Assembly (NCBI GenBank): GCA_030528665.1
Contig: JAUMYK010000022.1
Location: 1-17,846 of the forward strand
Length of the DNA stretch: 17,846 bases
Direction: 5' to 3'
DNA from: a bacterium
GTDB taxonomy: Bacteria > Patescibacteria > JAEDAM01 > Absconditabacterales > Absconditicoccaceae
Positions 1-11,223 of this stretch are shown piece after piece (positions within the stretch are counted from its first letter, which is position 1; the number at the start of each line of letters is the position of its first letter). The notes below the pieces were generated by a model. That model did no database searches. It had not been told where the DNA came from and saw only the letters and a list, made by a program, of their open reading frames with translations. The position numbers were made by a program, and so were the translations under genes.

Positions 1-2190
1 CTCTGCAAAGCTATACTTTTTACTTTCAGCAAGGAGATAGTACTTTCTGTAGATCGAAAGATTTTCCTCCCCTTCTGGCAAAACTTGCATCGCATTTCGT
101 ACCGCTAATCCTTCTTCATCTTTGAGATAATAGGCAGTTCAGGATTTAAAGATATTTCGTCCTGATTTTACACCATTCAGATATCTGATGAGATGAATAT
201 CTACCTCATGAGCAAGCAAAGCCTGAAGTTCTTGTTCTGAGATTTGAAGATTTTTTGCGATATTAATACTGACTGTTTTTCCCATTCTTATCGACATTCT
301 TGAAAAGTTTGTACTACTCTCCACAATTTCGACTCCAAAAATTCACTTTTCAGTCAAGTATTTTTCCACTTGTTCACGCAACTGTGGGAAAGTCAGATTT
401 TTCCCCTTTTTTTGTGCTTCTCCATTACTCTGCAAGATTTTTTCTTTGCTCATTTTCAATACTTCTGGATTGAACGCTCCAAATAAGGCGATATTCTCCT
501 TTTCAATAGTAGTAAAATCTTGCTGTGTATAGGCTTGTAATAAGCTTGCCTTGTGACTCAGCTCCTCTGCTTTATCTTTGAAAAGCTGTAAAACCGGACT
601 TTTAAGGTATGAGGACTCTAGATGTTCACGAAATTTTTTGAGCTCAGTATTTCGCTTTTCTTGCAAATTTAGATTTGGAAATTTATAGTCAAAGATTGGA
701 TTATACTCTCCTTTTGCTGAGATAAAGCGATCCAGCTCTGCAAAATAATTGATCGGTCTAAGTCTAGCAGTAAGATTATATCTTTTAGAAAACTTTTCTA
801 ATTTTTCATCAATCATATGGAGTTCTGCAGTTTCCATAGCTATAATTTTCTTGGGATTGAGAATATTGACTTGAATACTTTCTTTTCTCAATGGTTTTAG
901 TAAAAACTTTGATGCAGCTCTTTGCCCAAGGATGAGTTTTCCCTCTCCGCTTCCTATTTCATATTTCAGGTTTTTCAGCATAATCTCATTATCTGGAAGC
1001 TCGAGATGTAGGTGTTTAGCTCAGAATTTTTTAATCCTTTGAGCAATATCTGGAGAAATCTGATTTTTTTTATAGTGCAGATCCACCTCAACCAATAGCG
1101 TATGCGTCTCCTCCTGCTCTCCATCAAAGAGCTTCAGTTTACCAATCTGTGAGAGATAGAGGATTTTACTCTCCTTGAGTGCAAGGGTCTCCTCTCTAGA
1201 AAAGAGAGTTTTTGCAATTGCTACACCTTTTTCTGGGTCTTGGACTTTGAGATCAATCACTTTTTGCAATACAGATTTAAGTCTGATATTTGCGATCTTT
1301 TGCACTTCTAAACCTGCTCTTGCATTGATTTCTAGGAGTTTTGGTCCATTTTTTGTCACTACTCGGTCTAAGGCAAGGTAGCCTAAATTGACAAAATACT
1401 GCACTTTGGAAGAATAAAACAAAATATCGTTCCAAAAAGGGATTTGCTTCCCCTGATAATGTGCAAACTCAGTCGGAAATTTGCTCGTATAAATTTTATT
1501 TTTGTAGAAAATTGAGCTAATTTTACCCGTACCAATATCGATTCCACAGCCTATTCCCCCAGCATTGAGATTAGCCTTTCCTCCAGATTGAGCTGTAGGA
1601 ATCCTGATCATCGCTGCTACTGGGACAAGATTAAAGGTAATAATTCTCAAATCTGCAAGTCCAAATTGACAAAACTCCTTAAATCCCTCCCCTGGAACCA
1701 GTTTTTCCTCGATAATTGCTTCATCCGTCATTGTGAGTGAAAACTTTCCATCTAAGATATCGATAGTTCTTCTTTTCAGGTCTGCCTCTGAGATCAATTC
1801 TCCCTGCATCTGAAAAAGGTTTTCCATGATCGAGGAATCAGAATTATCTTGCTCTTTCTTAGTCAAAAAAGAAAAGAATGAAAAACCAGACTTTTTCTTT
1901 GGGCTCTGCCCTTTTCCAAAACTCTTGAGAATACAAATCCCTTTTCCCTTACTTCCATGATTGGGTTTAAGCACAAAATCTTTGTGAGGAATAGTACTAA
2001 AATCAAAGTCTGCAAGCTGTTTACGAGATTTTATAACTGCATAAGTCTGAGCAAAAGGGATCCCTCTCTCCCCCAAAAATTTTTTGGTTTGGAGTTTGTT
2101 GTCTGCGAGGCGGATCGCCTTTCTCGGATTTCGTTTTTTGATATAGTGGAGATTTCTGGCATTATTTCCTAGAATTCAGAAGTTCAACAT
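1..2190 (-). CDS. ATP-grasp amino-acid ligase fused to DUF1704 metallocarboxypeptidase domain (3' partial)
   Basis: One open frame of 730 codons when TGA is Gly (TGA at 2176, 1021, 343, 139, residues 5, 390, 616, 684); the C-terminus lies beyond the left edge. Residues 1 to about 370 resemble the RimK-related alpha-L-glutamate ligase family: N-terminal LGNNARNLHYIKKRNPRKAI, a nucleotide-binding KPNHGSKGKG, a SGGKANLNAGG segment and the metal-binding LEINARAG typical of ATP-grasp enzymes. Residues about 415 onward match DUF1704: INYFAELDRF, then the zinc motif HEVDIH (HExxxH, residues 661-666) followed by RYLNG, and EEGLA (692-696), the counterpart of QEGLA. Family knowledge: DUF1704 includes the MATCAP tubulin tyrosine carboxypeptidases. 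Inferred role: adding and removing a residue on a peptide or protein; substrate unknown. The ATG at 2190 is chosen because homology begins there; it lies 11 nt after the toxin stop, so the gene is probably co-transcribed with the toxin-antitoxin pair. Confidence 0.88.
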
Positions 2191-2201
2191 CGTCAGGATG
2201 A

Positions 2202-2462
2202 TTATTTATAAATATCGCCTCTTGCACCTGCATCGTAAAAGTAAATAATAAGCTGCTCTTCTTGGATACGGAAGAGGAATCTCCATTTTCACAATCTCAG
2301 TCTCCATCTATCTTTTCTTCCTTGCAAAAGCTTAATATCCAGCAAAGGAGAAAGTCCTGTATTTTCCAGAATCATCGCTGCGTGAAAAAAGGAATCCTGT
2401 ACTTGAGGATGTTTTTGCAAGAATTTGAGCACTTTTTTTTCAACTTTTACTTGGTAGGTCAT
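2202..2462 (-). CDS. RelE/ParE-family toxin (type II toxin-antitoxin)
   Basis: 86 codons, intact only if TGA at 2289-2291 is Gly58. The sequence has the family's shape: MTYQVKVEKKVLKFLQ start, a helical middle, then DRWRLRLGKWR (51-61), a hydrophobic strand LIIYFYD, and the terminal RGDIYK. RelE/ParE toxins act as ribosome-dependent mRNA endonucleases (RelE) or gyrase poisons (ParE); the sequence alone does not tell which. Gly58 sits in the R-x-G-x-x-R turn that is strongly conserved in the family, so the recoded reading is convincing. The ATG overlaps the end of the antitoxin gene by 16 nt, implying translational coupling. In a standard-code host the product would stop after 57 residues and lose the C-terminal strands and basic residues. 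Confidence 0.85.
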
Positions 2463-2731
2463 TGCAACAGCCTTTGTGCCTGAGATAAAGAAAAACTCTC
2501 CTGATCTCCACGGAGCGATGCCTCATACGCTTTCAGATTTTCCTCTGTTTCCTCGTTTCGATCATATTCACTATCACAGGACAAAAGCCCAAATCTGATC
2601 TGTTTTCCAAGATACGCCTCTACACAATAGGTAAAAAATGCTTTGGTCGTCAGCCCTTCCGCTGCAAGCTGAGCTTGAAACTGCTTTTTCTTTTCTGCAC
2701 TTGGGAGGGTAAATGCGATTTGATTACTCAT
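2447..2731 (-). CDS. RHH/RelB-DinJ-like antitoxin
   Basis: 94 codons with one TGA (2459-2461, Gly91) and a TAA stop at 2447. The N-terminal third fits a ribbon-helix-helix DNA-binding fold: strand NQIAFTLP, helix AEKKKQFQAQLAAEG, turn LTT, helix KAFFTYCVEAYLGKQ. The C-terminal half is acidic and probably unstructured, as expected for the toxin-wrapping part. The ATG at 2731 is preferred over an in-frame GTG at 2782, because the latter falls between the -35 and -10 boxes of the predicted promoter and would add a 17-residue tail unlike RHH proteins. It should repress its own promoter and neutralise the toxin encoded just downstream. The exact family (RelB, DinJ or other) is uncertain. Confidence 0.78.
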
Positions 2732-2755
2732 AGAATAATTTTTTAATAGTAAAAA

Positions 2756-2784
2756 TTCACTTAAACTATAGTTATTTTTCACTT
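2756..2784. promoter_or_regulatory. Candidate antitoxin operator
   Basis: A perfect 10-bp palindrome AACTATAGTT (2764-2773) covers the -10 box and is flanked by two direct copies of TTCACTT (2756-2762 and 2778-2784) spaced 22 bp start to start, close to two helical turns. RHH antitoxins commonly bind short repeats over their own promoter. Binding is inferred only. Confidence 0.35.
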
Positions 2785-3542: not shown

Positions 3543-4097
3543 TTAGGGATGTGCTTGATAGCCCTCATAATAATAGGATTGCTCAATCCCCTTGAAGATC
3601 ACTTCTTTGCTCTCAATATCTGAGCTTAGATGAGCAGAGAGGAGCGTTCTGAGTTCGAGGTCATTGATAGGGCTTCTTTCCATAGCTTGGAGATAGAGGA
3701 TTTTATCTATTTTTTCTCGGTTGATGATTTTTTGAAGGCGGGATTTGAGGAGTTGATCCAGCCAGATACGCATTGATCTCCCATTTCCCTCCAAAAAAGG
3801 ATGTGCGATATTCATCTCCACATATTTAGCGATAATTTCTTCAAAGGCCTGATCTGGCATTTGTTCGATCTTTTGGAGGATGTCTGTCAAATAGAGGACA
3901 TTCGCAAACCTAAATCCGCCTTTTGACATATTTTGCGTGCGAACCTTGCCTGCAAAATCATACAAACCTTGAAAAAGATGATAATGGATTTGACACAAGC
4001 CGTCCAAGTTCCCTACTGGGATTTTGTTGATTTTACCAGATGTAAAAAGGGCATAGGCTTGCTGGAGACTTTGATGATCGATGTGATGGGACTGCAT
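3543..4097 (-). CDS. fic: Fic-domain AMP-transferase, class III-like with C-terminal autoinhibitory motif
   Basis: 184 residues, no TGA codons. The Fic active site is complete: HPFLEGNGR at 99-107 (catalytic His99). A flap-like [13 protein letters not shown] occurs at 58-70. Near the C-terminus, SYYYEG (174-179) fits the inhibitory S/T-x-x-x-E-G/N motif whose Glu blocks productive ATP binding; its C-terminal position defines class III. Overall the protein closely resembles my memory of Neisseria meningitidis Fic (about 190 aa), which AMPylates DNA gyrase subunit B and is released from inhibition by autoAMPylation on dilution. The target here is inferred. It lies 24 nt after murD and 21 nt before ung, apparently co-transcribed, with no separate antitoxin gene, consistent with internal inhibition. 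A cell-filamentation role is an alternative reading of the family name. Confidence 0.93.
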
Positions 4098-7710: not shown

Positions 7711-7833
7711 GAGGTAGGGAAAATGATGAAAAAAAGTCTGACTTTTTTGCCTTTTCTTTTTTTTTGTGTATACTTGTGCTAGGCTTTATTTTGCATAAGA
7801 TAGCTGATGCCGCTACAATGATGTACAGCGCGC
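7711..7833 (+). other. Displaced signal-peptide coding segment upstream of the ATPase gene
   Basis: A near-ideal ribosome binding site GAGGT (7711-7715) stands 7 nt before ATG ATG AAA AAA AGT at 7723, giving MMKKSLTFLPFLFF, a typical signal-peptide start, in the same frame as the ATPase. The frame hits TAG at 7780, but a one-base shift in the T9 run (7757-7765) continues as CILVLGFILHKIADAA, a hydrophobic core plus an A-D-A cleavage-type site. Dropping one base near 7833 returns to the ATPase frame as YSALEEAIASS. Either a two-indel sequencing or natural lesion, or a 19-codon leader ORF. Confidence 0.5.
7747..7774 (+). promoter_or_regulatory. Candidate promoter of the ATPase gene
   Basis: -35 TTGCCT (7747-7752), 16-bp spacer, -10 TATACT (7769-7774), 32 nt before ATG 7807. 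It overlaps the displaced signal-peptide segment; if translation truly begins at 7723 this match is coincidental. Confidence 0.3.
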
Positions 7834-10800
7834 TTGGAAGAGGCAATTGCCAGCAGCCAAGACCTCAACAATCTCTCAAAACTCACCCAAACCGCTTGGG
7901 AAAGTCAAAAATCTGAGTGTATTCAAGCATTTGGAGGATTTTCTGCGATTAGGAGTTTTGTTCAGAGTAAGGCTGAACAGGCACACTCCTCTGCTCCAAG
8001 CGCTCCTTCACTCCAAGAGCAATGCGAAACTCAGCTGATTGAAGTTTTTAGACAGGATTTTACCCAAAAAAATAATCTTTCAAAACTGACTACCCAGGCA
8101 CGAGGTAATCAAAAAACGGAATGTCTCCAGCTCTTGGGAGGATTTTCACAGTTACCAACCTTTCTCAAAAATATTGAAAACCATTATCAAGAAAATTATG
8201 TCCCAGGTGTCAGTGGAAGCAGCCCTTCAAAATCCATACAAACTCCTACGACTCCAATCTCTAGTCCAAGCAATCAGGATACCCTTCTCACCTATACTGG
8301 AACAACAAATACTCCTCCATCACTGGGAAGCCTAGAAGATCAGCACTGGGCTACTGCTAAGATGATTGGGATGTATGTGCTGTATTTTTTGATTACAGTA
8401 GTTTCAATTGCTGTATTGACTGCTATTGTGAGGTTGATCCTTAGATATGTCTACTCTTTTTTAAACAACAGGAGGATGGTCTTCCTCAAAGTAATGCTCC
8501 CAAAAACCGATGGGAAAACTGATCGTGAGCAGGAAAAGGAGATCGCCAAAGATATGAAAGAAAAAATCTCGAGAATGTCTCAGCTCTACAACGGCTTACA
8601 TAAAATTGCTGAGCTAAGTACCTGGGAAATGATGATGCATAAAATTTTTGGTAAACAAAAAATCGTTCTGATCTATCAATATGAGAAAGGACAACTAGGA
8701 TTTATCATTGGAACCTATCCTGAGTATCAAAATATTGTGGAGAGTGCAATCTCTGCCCAGTTTGCTAATTGTTCTCTAGAAAAAGTCAAAAAACCTGATC
8801 CTTTTCAGAAAAAATACTACGATATTATGCCTCTTGAACCTGAAAAAGATCCTGTCTATACGATCAAAACCTATAAACAAATGCCTGATGATCCGATCAA
8901 TAATTTGATTGATACAATGAGTAAAATCTCGATTTATGATACTGTTACCGCTATCCTTGTCATCAAACCAGAAAGTTCCGCCTACAATGCGAGAAGACAA
9001 AAGGCTGCAGATAGACTCTACAAAGGGCTAGATCTGTATGAAACCAGGCGATGGCATTGGAAAAATCTGATCAATCCTTTCAGGTTTCTCTCCTTTTTGT
9101 TTATGGGACCAAGTGAAAAGCTTCTTTCCAACAAAAATCAGGAAGAAAAGGTCACTATGGTGAGAATGGTAAAAGCCAAAGAAGAAACGATGAATACTAT
9201 TGGTGAAGAAGCTGGAAATCCAATCTACAAATCAGGATTGATTATCATTAGTTCCTCAGATGTAGAGGGGCAAGCTAGAAATAATCTCAAGGCAATGGAA
9301 TCTGCTTATAATGTCTATACCGATGAATATGCTAATAGACTCCAAGATGACAATACCAAACACGATATTTTCTCTGGGATTTTTATACCACTATGGAAGA
9401 TCGCGGTACAGTTTTATCTGACAGGTTTTTTCTTTAAGTACTCCTACTTTTCGACCAATGAGCTGAGTTCATTATATCACTTTGCTGATAGTGTCTACAA
9501 TCGTTCACCAATCATTGAATGGATGCAGTATAAAGTCTTGCCTGCACCATCCAATTTGCCTCAATTTAGCGATGATGAGTGGAATGGTAAACTTATGACT
9601 GGTATCCTCGCTGAGAAATATAAGAAAGGAAATCTGTCTGAAATTCTCAAAGAATACTGAAATCACCGAGCTGTAGGCAAAAAAACTGTGGAAGAGGACA
9701 AAATGACCCCTCTTGAAGAATATCAATCCAAACATCCTCAAGCCGTGATTGTAGAAGAAGGAGAAAAAAAACTGATCGATGGTCACGAAATTATTAGCAA
9801 AGGAGATCAATCACTGGTAAGAGAGATTGTCTCTACACAGACTGTTCAAGGTTACAAGCTGTACAAAAATGCAGTTCTCCTCTGAACCAATATCTACAGA
9901 AATCAGCTCTCTCCTGTCTATATGAAGAGAGAGGATAGAACCAGACATCACTATATGATTGGAAAGTCTGGTACGGGTAAATCCGTTTTCCTCCAAACTA
10001 TGGCAAGACAAGACCTCTGGAATGGAGATGGAATCTGTTTGATTGATCCTCACGGTGATCTGGCAGAAGATGTCCTCAGCTTTGTACCTAAAGAAAGAGC
10101 AAAGGATGTAGTCTATTTTGATGCAGGAAACGAAGATCGTCCTATGGGTCTCAATCTCTATGAAATTAACTCTCTGGATGAAGCAGATAGAACCGTAAAT
10201 GATGCAACAGAAATCTTTTTGAAAATGTTTGGACCAGAAATTTTTGGACCAAGAATCCAGGAATATTTCAAATATGGAAGTCTAACGATTTTGGAGGATT
10301 TTGATGATAGACCAACCCTTTTGGATGTGGTAAGACTCTTTACCGATGAGGCATATAGAGAAATCAAAACTGCCAAAGTCACCAACGCTGTCGTGAGAAA
10401 CTGGTGGGAGAGAACCTATAACTCTATGGGAGATAGAGAAAAAGCTGAGATCATCCCATACTTCTCTTCTAAATTTGTATCTTTCAATACCAATAGACTG
10501 ATCAGAAACATCATCTGACAAACCAAGTCAGCATTCAATTTTGATGATGTGATGAATAATCAAAAGATTCTATTAGTAAATCTCTCTAAAGGTAAAATCT
10601 GAGAACTCAACGCACAACTTCTCGGTATGATTCTCGTATCCAAAATCTACAACTCAGCTATGGGAAGAGCAAAACTTGATCCTAAAGATAGAAAAGATTT
10701 TTATCTCTATGTGGATGAGTTCCAAAACTTTGTATCAGGAACTTTTGCTGATATTCTCTCGGAGGCGAGAAAGTATAGACTTGGACTGATTATGGCACAC

Positions 10801-11223
10801 CAATATATCGCCCAACTCGAAACAGGGAAAGGCAATGGAGAAGGTGGAAAATCTGATGTAAAAGCTGCAGTATTTGGTAACGTGGGTACGATGATGAGTT
10901 TTAAAATCGGTGCACCAGATGCGGAGTTTATGGAAAAGGAATATGCTCCTCTCCTCTGACCACAAGATATCGTAGGAATTGCCAACTATAAATCCTATAT
11001 CAAACTCAATATTGATAATGCAACTTCCAAGGTATTTAGTATGAATTCGATCTATACCAAAGATTATCAAAACAAAAAAATTGTACCACTCCTCCAAGAA
11101 TACTCCTCCAAAAAATATGGAAGAGCAAGAGAGTTTGTCGATGCTGAGATTTCTAATAGACTCGGTGTAGGCGGAGATTTTGGCTTGGATGATCTCCCAA
11201 GTACTCCAATGGGAGAAGAATAA
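7807..11223 (+). CDS. Membrane-anchored VirD4/TraG-HerA-type ATPase (T4SS coupling protein-like)
   Basis: 1138 codons to TAA, with TGA as Gly at 7819, 9658, 9883, 10516, 10600 and 10957. Order: a duplicated N-terminal unit (about 21-54 and 90-123), a Ser/Thr/Pro-rich linker (133-178), a membrane helix (about 186-214) followed by basic residues, a roughly 450-residue alpha/beta region like that preceding the ATPase in many CPR homologues, then the motor: Walker A GKSGTGKS (719-726), LIDPHGDLAEDV, NIIGQ, VNLSKGKIGE, Walker B YLYVDEFQNF (Asp970, Glu971), MAHQYIAQL. Relatives couple DNA or protein substrates to type IV secretion or pilus machinery; no other such gene is nearby, so its role is inferred. 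ATG 7807 is the first start after an in-frame TAG at 7801, but the true N-terminus may lie at 7723. Confidence 0.87.

Follow-up and report, generated by a model that had tools for sequence, protein, structure and literature searches.

An ATP-grasp ligase, a degenerate retropepsin-like domain and a MATCAP metallocarboxypeptidase domain joined in one polypeptide of Absconditabacterales

The fusion gene and its three domains

The window analysed here, i.e. the whole stretch of 17,846 nucleotides of contig JAUMYK010000022.1 (assembly GCA_030528665.1; Patescibacteria, Absconditabacterales, Absconditicoccaceae), begins with a gene for a fusion of an ATP-grasp ligase, a retropepsin-like domain and a MATCAP metallocarboxypeptidase domain (Table 1). 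We observed that positions 2190-1 of the minus strand form a single open frame of 730 residues under translation table 25, which continues past the window edge. There were in-frame UGA codons at residues 5, 390, 616 and 684, and the gene was broken when translated by table 11. Residue 684 was glycine in 77 of 77 rows of our alignment A3, code-11 loci among them, which supports the reading of UGA as glycine here. The closest homologue among the matches listed has 811 residues (70% identity across the whole query) and homologues are mostly 800-830 residues long. Therefore we estimate that about 80 C-terminal residues of the protein lie beyond the window edge.

Table 1. Positions in the window of the fusion gene, its domains and selected codons and motifs
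Feature	Residues	Window positions	Strand	Remarks
ATP-grasp / retropepsin-like / MATCAP fusion gene		1..2190	-	table 25, 730 codons within window
ATP-grasp ligase domain	1-330	1201..2190	-	Pfam ATPgrasp_ST 12-310; RimK fold
Retropepsin-like domain, degenerate	340-437	880..1173	-	RimB/RloA family; three split relatives have a PF05618 match in the homologous part
Catalytic Asp-Thr-Gly position, here Asp-Leu-His	370-372	1075..1083	-	alignment register
UGA codon	390	1021..1023	-	inside retropepsin-like domain; position not conserved
MATCAP/DUF1704 metallocarboxypeptidase domain	451-730	1..840	-	Pfam match 488-697; cut by window edge
HEVDIH motif	661-666	193..210	-	E662 aligns with E281 of TMCP1/MATCAP
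UGA codon = Gly	684	139..141	-	invariant Gly in 77-row alignment
EEGLA motif	692-696	103..117	-	E693 aligns with E316 of TMCP1/MATCAP

The N-terminal domain is probably a RimK-type glutamate ligase. The ATPgrasp_ST match was obtained with hmmscan at E 7e-47, and the best fold matches of the modelled ligase region were RimK, i.e. an ATP-grasp fold with RimK as the nearest structure. This agrees with the ligase type proposed in an earlier, sequence-only reading of the window. The structure comparison of the whole-protein model covered residues 5-333 only; the MATCAP domain was assigned by sequence. For the latter, hmmscan detected PF08014 (formerly DUF1704) with E 1.6e-16 and 60.7 bits, against a gathering cut-off of 27, within residues 415-730, where the sequence-only reading had expected it. 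Homology to TMCP1/MATCAP (PDB 7z5g) extended across the catalytic domain (profile E 1.5e-19), with E281 and E316 conserved, and the active-site residues H661, E662, H666 and E693 did not vary among the 77 aligned proteins. The window edge cuts the domain, and relatives, e.g. L059 and L012, covered the profile nearly completely. We thus predict a metallocarboxypeptidase with an intact active site; the HEVDIH and EEGLA metal motifs noticed earlier are present and match those of MATCAP in their active-site residues.

The region between these domains is a decayed retropepsin of the RimB/RloA family, the family that cuts polyglutamate. We base this identity on the agreement of homology through split relatives, a shared alignment register and fold ranking. 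No Pfam match, PF05618 included, was found in the middle domain of the window protein itself; its split relatives L101, L120 and L104 exceeded the PF05618 cut-off. Ranking by fold indicated a retropepsin: Foldseek returned nothing below 1e-3, and its ranked rows were retropepsins and pepsins with a few unrelated ones (LolCDE, BceAB). The sequence profile A2 of the domain, compared with Protein Data Bank (PDB) chains, found nothing at E up to 10. The sequence-only reading had taken residues 370-415 for a ligase-peptidase junction crossed by a UGA. The UGA is there, but the region belongs to a separate domain. Judging from the broken motif and from the shortened stretch of the would-be flap, the domain would be inactive as a peptidase.

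Conservation of the fusion and its gene neighbourhood

With the window protein as query, a protein search detected 459 homologues (E up to 1e-3). PF14397 and PF08014 occurred together in 119 of the 120 homologues listed (the best 120 of 459), mostly of 800-830 residues. The in-frame joining of a RimK-like ATP-grasp to DUF1704, proposed from the sequence alone, was therefore found in the window and in nearly all listed homologues. The accompanying expectation that standard annotation would hide the protein did not hold, since NCBI names its relatives "tyrosine/phenylalanine carboxypeptidase domain-containing protein".

A scan of contigs with the single protein as query gave no matches, and an alignment of 21 sequences succeeded, giving 107 encoding stretches; 80 of these were kept as our set of loci. 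They included Absconditabacteria/SR1, Gracilibacteria, Peregrinibacteria and Peribacteria. Translation under code 25 placed both domains in a single frame at 74 of the 80 loci; under code 11 this number was 44, some of them being pieces of UGA-broken genes. The six other loci were contig-end fragments (L029, L064, L074, L078), a pair of overlapping frames (L065) and a ligase part alone (L079). As 39 fused genes sit in loci that our script assigned to code 11, the fusion is independent of recoding. In the IQ-TREE analysis (58 chosen rows) the window protein paired with L009 (100/99) and was grouped with L017 and L025; in FastTree (130 rows) SR1 RAAC1 (L012) joined this group. Four in-frame UGA codons and a gene cut by the window edge could raise the suspicion that an assembly error, a frameshift or a wrong code mimics a fusion. 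This explanation has practically no probability left, as it is refuted by the same architecture in the 119 listed homologues and in code-11 genomes without in-frame UGA in the gene. The ATP-grasp/MATCAP fusion is real and conserved under both genetic codes.

The commonest neighbour, present at 55 of 80 loci, was a protein of approximately 500 residues, members of which match PF14402, the seven-transmembrane (7TM) part of RloB. Among the 48 fused loci whose contigs extend at least 2 kb upstream and 6 kb downstream, we counted those with an RloB-like profile match in the same orientation no more than 6 kb away. There were 37 such loci (14 of 21 code-25, 23 of 27 code-11). Where the gene was detected, it lay upstream of the fusion in 32 of 34 code-11 cases and downstream of it in 13 of 16 code-25 ones. 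Separate neighbouring genes of the two families, mentioned in the sequence-only reading, do exist. Seven split operons have the order RloB, ligase-retropepsin, MATCAP (L101, L120, L191, L192, L194, L195, L200), and on plasmids of Sinorhizobium medicae (L121) and Mesorhizobium (L122) a QEGLA (MATCAP) gene stands directly before a glutathione synthetase gene.

In both rhizobial loci a gene for N-formylglutamate amidohydrolase belongs to the cluster, and it is parted from the other two in L121 by two genes for group II intron maturases. The rhizobial operon resembles the fusion in that a MATCAP gene adjoins an ATP-grasp gene; it differs in the ATP-grasp family, in having separate genes and in the extra amidohydrolase. 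Such a metabolic-looking set would suit a small-molecule pathway, in which the domains synthesise and degrade a glutamyl metabolite or short peptide (osmolyte or precursor) and do not modify a protein, and RimK is described to make free polyglutamate as well (PMC11957791). We regard this explanation as unlikely, as the nearest fold relatives of the ligase act on C-termini of proteins or carrier proteins, namely RimK on RpsF and LysX/ArgX on LysW. A MATCAP relative was present in 119 plasmid records.

Further genes of these families were observed around the loci. In 11 of 20 stand-alone MATCAP loci examined, mreB lies directly upstream on the same strand, at a distance of 3-36 bases (L102, L103, L105, L107-L112, L115, L116); in a twelfth, L106, the genes are 1263 bases apart. 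Several of these loci also have a ligase-retropepsin gene and additional ATP-grasp genes nearby. We considered MreB as an acceptor, and as its C-terminal residues vary across these loci we claim no substrate. RimK-like ligase genes were found near the ligase part in 14 loci, the ligase-only L079 among them, and a second, diverged MATCAP-like family (HEISTH and QEGVA in L009) in eight, where the L023 member had no Pfam match and the L005 member was below the cut-off. Loci with such extra RimK-like or MATCAP-like genes (L002, L005, L007, L008, L009, L012 and others) were mostly from Absconditabacteria.

Elsewhere in the window, the fusion is directly preceded by two small overlapping open reading frames in a toxin-antitoxin-like arrangement (2202-2462 and 2447-2782, minus strand); a Pfam search of both gave no match at E up to 0.001. 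A Fic/DOC protein is encoded at 3543-4097 (minus), and a large protein with weak matches to type IV coupling proteins at 7807-11223 (plus).

Retropepsin decay and linkage to MATCAP

Split ligase-retropepsin homologues are common: of 8000 scored, 7964 had E up to 1e-3. Asp-Thr-Gly (DTG) was present in 130 of 130 such proteins (120 listed and 10 from the loci), while D[TS]G was found in 6 of 92 MATCAP-fused proteins, 47 of which keep Asp at the first position. Since the 120 listed homologues were picked by likeness to an intact query, we repeated the count on a motif-independent sample. For this purpose, 379 Patescibacteria genomes were searched with PF14397. There were 114 matches at E up to 1e-30 in 113 genomes, which left 110 usable proteins from 109 genomes after G001, G015, G119 and G260 were filtered out.

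In this sample D[TS]G was retained in all 44 ligase-retropepsin proteins from genomes without a MATCAP match, in 21 of 22 with MATCAP elsewhere in the genome, in 4 of 8 with a co-oriented MATCAP gene next to them, and in 4 of the 36 that are fused to it (two of the 36 frames are short: G110, 623 residues, and G050, 671). In the sole "elsewhere" exception, G305, the frames for MATCAP and the ligase overlap in the same orientation, so that the protein belongs with the neighbours. Consequently, all 37 broken-motif proteins were MATCAP-linked (32 fused, 4 adjacent, 1 overlapping), and all 65 unlinked proteins were intact. In the five MATCAP neighbours with motif loss Asn replaces Asp.

The rest of the domain followed the motif. 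From the motif to the second conserved block there was a median of 61 residues in fused proteins, 70 in the Asn group and 102 in unfused proteins, and the flap-like G..R pattern was found in 8 of 36, 1 of 5 and 55 of 65, respectively. PF05618 matched in none of the 36 fused or 5 Asn-group genomes and in 49 of 68 others. We treat this absence as supporting evidence of little weight, because the profile also misses the remaining 19 of the 68, in which the motif is intact. Two ligase-retropepsin proteins, L126/L204 (G261) and L133/L209 (G080), carry an extra C-terminal part (856 and 922 residues in total length); this extension gave no match to the MATCAP profile used.

The number of independent events is small. 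In the IQ-TREE analysis the main fused group and L071 were on one side of a branch (100/98), fused G233 and G284 stood apart beside an unfused intact protein (100/99), and the Asn group was separate (100/100). We therefore count about three independent decay events, not 37; FastTree needed more changes among fused proteins. With three lineages only, and four fused and four adjacent proteins that keep the motif, the retropepsin could have decayed by drift unrelated to MATCAP, which would then have another target altogether. We consider this quite improbable, given that 37 of 37 broken-motif proteins are MATCAP-linked and 65 of 65 unlinked ones intact.

A proposed writer and eraser of polyglutamate

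From the three domains, their residues and conservation, the neighbours of the relatives and the coupled loss, all of which can be read in the sequences, we infer the activities, the amino acid and the acceptor. The fusion would be a cytosolic bifunctional enzyme that writes and erases polyglutamate, in which MATCAP took over from the retropepsin; we lean towards this account with modest confidence. The ATP-grasp domain, of the RloC/RimK type by family and fold, would activate a C-terminal carboxylate with ATP and add glutamate. The MATCAP domain would remove residues from the same C-terminal end, because its active-site residues are conserved and the eukaryotic TMCP1 and TMCP2 are described to shorten polyglutamate chains (PMC10499314). 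The ancestor of the middle domain would be a retropepsin of the RimB/RloA type, which would have erased polyglutamate before MATCAP did. Having lost Asp-Thr-Gly and, by length, the flap, it may have been kept as a scaffold or ligase activator, since RimB is described both to remove RimK-added glutamates and to stimulate RimK, and a RimB-RimK hybrid to be active (PMC11957791). Removal of ligase-added glutamates by MATCAP would be the simplest account of the coupled loss. The acceptor is probably linked to the RloB-like membrane protein encoded nearby, i.e. to the envelope, given that neighbour, the cell-shape and osmotic phenotypes described for rlo mutants (PMC12239564) and the vesicle overproduction described after disruption of a RloB-type gene in Shewanella (PMC12096838). 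Two features absent from the sequence-only reading, the retropepsin domain and the RloB neighbour, speak for polyglutamate and not for a tyrosine as on tubulin.

The same domains, and their fusion, would also fit an opposite order, as a peptidase fused to a ligase can act on the same tail before or after it. MATCAP would then act first, cutting back the encoded C-terminus of the acceptor to mature it, after which the ligase adds glutamate or another residue, as in the detyrosination and retyrosination of tubulin. We find this order rather unlikely: an exchange of erasers explains why the retropepsin is lost in coupling with MATCAP, and a maturation step does not, and the neighbour clusters (frames of at least 60 residues) contained no conspicuous conserved gene for a small acceptor.

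Several observations weigh against the writer-eraser account. The window protein was below the NCBI cut-offs both for TIGR02291, the RloC-like glutamate ligase (196 bits, cut-off 314.2; split relative L120 scored 306.6), and for TIGR02421, the QEGLA equivalog (70.5 bits for the edge-cut protein, cut-off 338.65; full-length L012 and L059 scored 78.4 and 194.8). D370 of the window protein is still Asp, as is the first motif position in 19 of 36 fused proteins. To the four fused proteins with the complete motif and the small number of decay events we add that DTG is intact in 4 of the 9 proteins whose operon continues with MATCAP, so that both erasers seem able to coexist. In seven genomes, stand-alone matches to PF05618 (retropepsin) and MATCAP lie at most approximately 3 kb apart in the same orientation (G035, G172, G240, G306, G315, G322, G365; in G172 and G322 a small ATP-grasp match lies beside them). 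An RloB-like gene was not found in 11 of the 48 loci, and the window ends before its expected place. In the literature searched we found no biochemistry of a bacterial MATCAP and no reaction assigned to bacterial DUF1704/QEGLA relatives of the tubulin-trimming enzymes.

The fusion can be compared with several known systems. The Rlo system of Pseudomonas aeruginosa is described to consist of the retropepsin RloA, the inactive transglutaminase-7TM protein RloB and the ATP-grasp RloC; RloA cleaved reporters with eight or ten glutamates and left those with at most six uncut, and the inactive controls were D48A and D48N (PMC12239564). The fusion and its relatives share with it the RloC-type ATP-grasp, the RloA-type retropepsin fold and the RloB-like neighbour. 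However, the fusion joins the ligase, a degenerate retropepsin and MATCAP, whereas Pseudomonas RloA is a separate secreted enzyme. The RimBK hybrid likewise carries a glutamate ligase and a retropepsin-type domain in one polypeptide (PMC11957791), but there RimB is N-terminal and active, while in the fusion the retropepsin follows the ligase, its motif is broken and a metallopeptidase is added. With TMCP1 and TMCP2, described as tubulin carboxypeptidases and deglutamylases (PMC10499314), the fusion shares the homologous catalytic domain and both conserved glutamates. It differs from them in being bacterial and fused to its presumed counter-enzyme. The TTL/TTLL tubulin ligases are ATP-grasp enzymes that add Tyr or Glu and are opposed by MATCAP/TMCP. 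They are separate proteins in eukaryotes, and the window protein had no match to the TTL family (PF03133) at E up to 1, with weak matches in some relatives. Ligase-retropepsin hybrids and the rlo operon are thus already published. What seems to be new is the architecture that includes MATCAP, together with the replacement of one eraser by another, both as a variation on the RimK/RimB and Rlo theme; we found no paper joining MATCAP/DUF1704 with an ATP-grasp in the open-licence literature searched.

In summary, the worn-out older peptidase between the ligase and the MATCAP domain suggests that one kind of eraser replaced another in this group of tiny bacteria. We predict that bacterial MATCAP domains are polyglutamate exopeptidases, because they are fused to a RimK-type ligase and the polyglutamate-cutting retropepsin decays in MATCAP-linked lineages. 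The fusion is a single polypeptide in which writing and erasing could be measured, and it may give access to the substrate of the rlo operon. A broader, speculative idea, which we hold to be less likely than not, is a full bacterial write-erase polyglutamate code in which retropepsin and MATCAP, unrelated erasers, replace one another (at least three times in our sample) and which would act on the envelope or the cell-shape machinery (RloB; the mreB-MATCAP clade). It would be a counterpart, and perhaps the source, of the TTLL/TMCP tubulin code, and the fusion offers a route to ask whether the eukaryotic code grew from a bacterial one.
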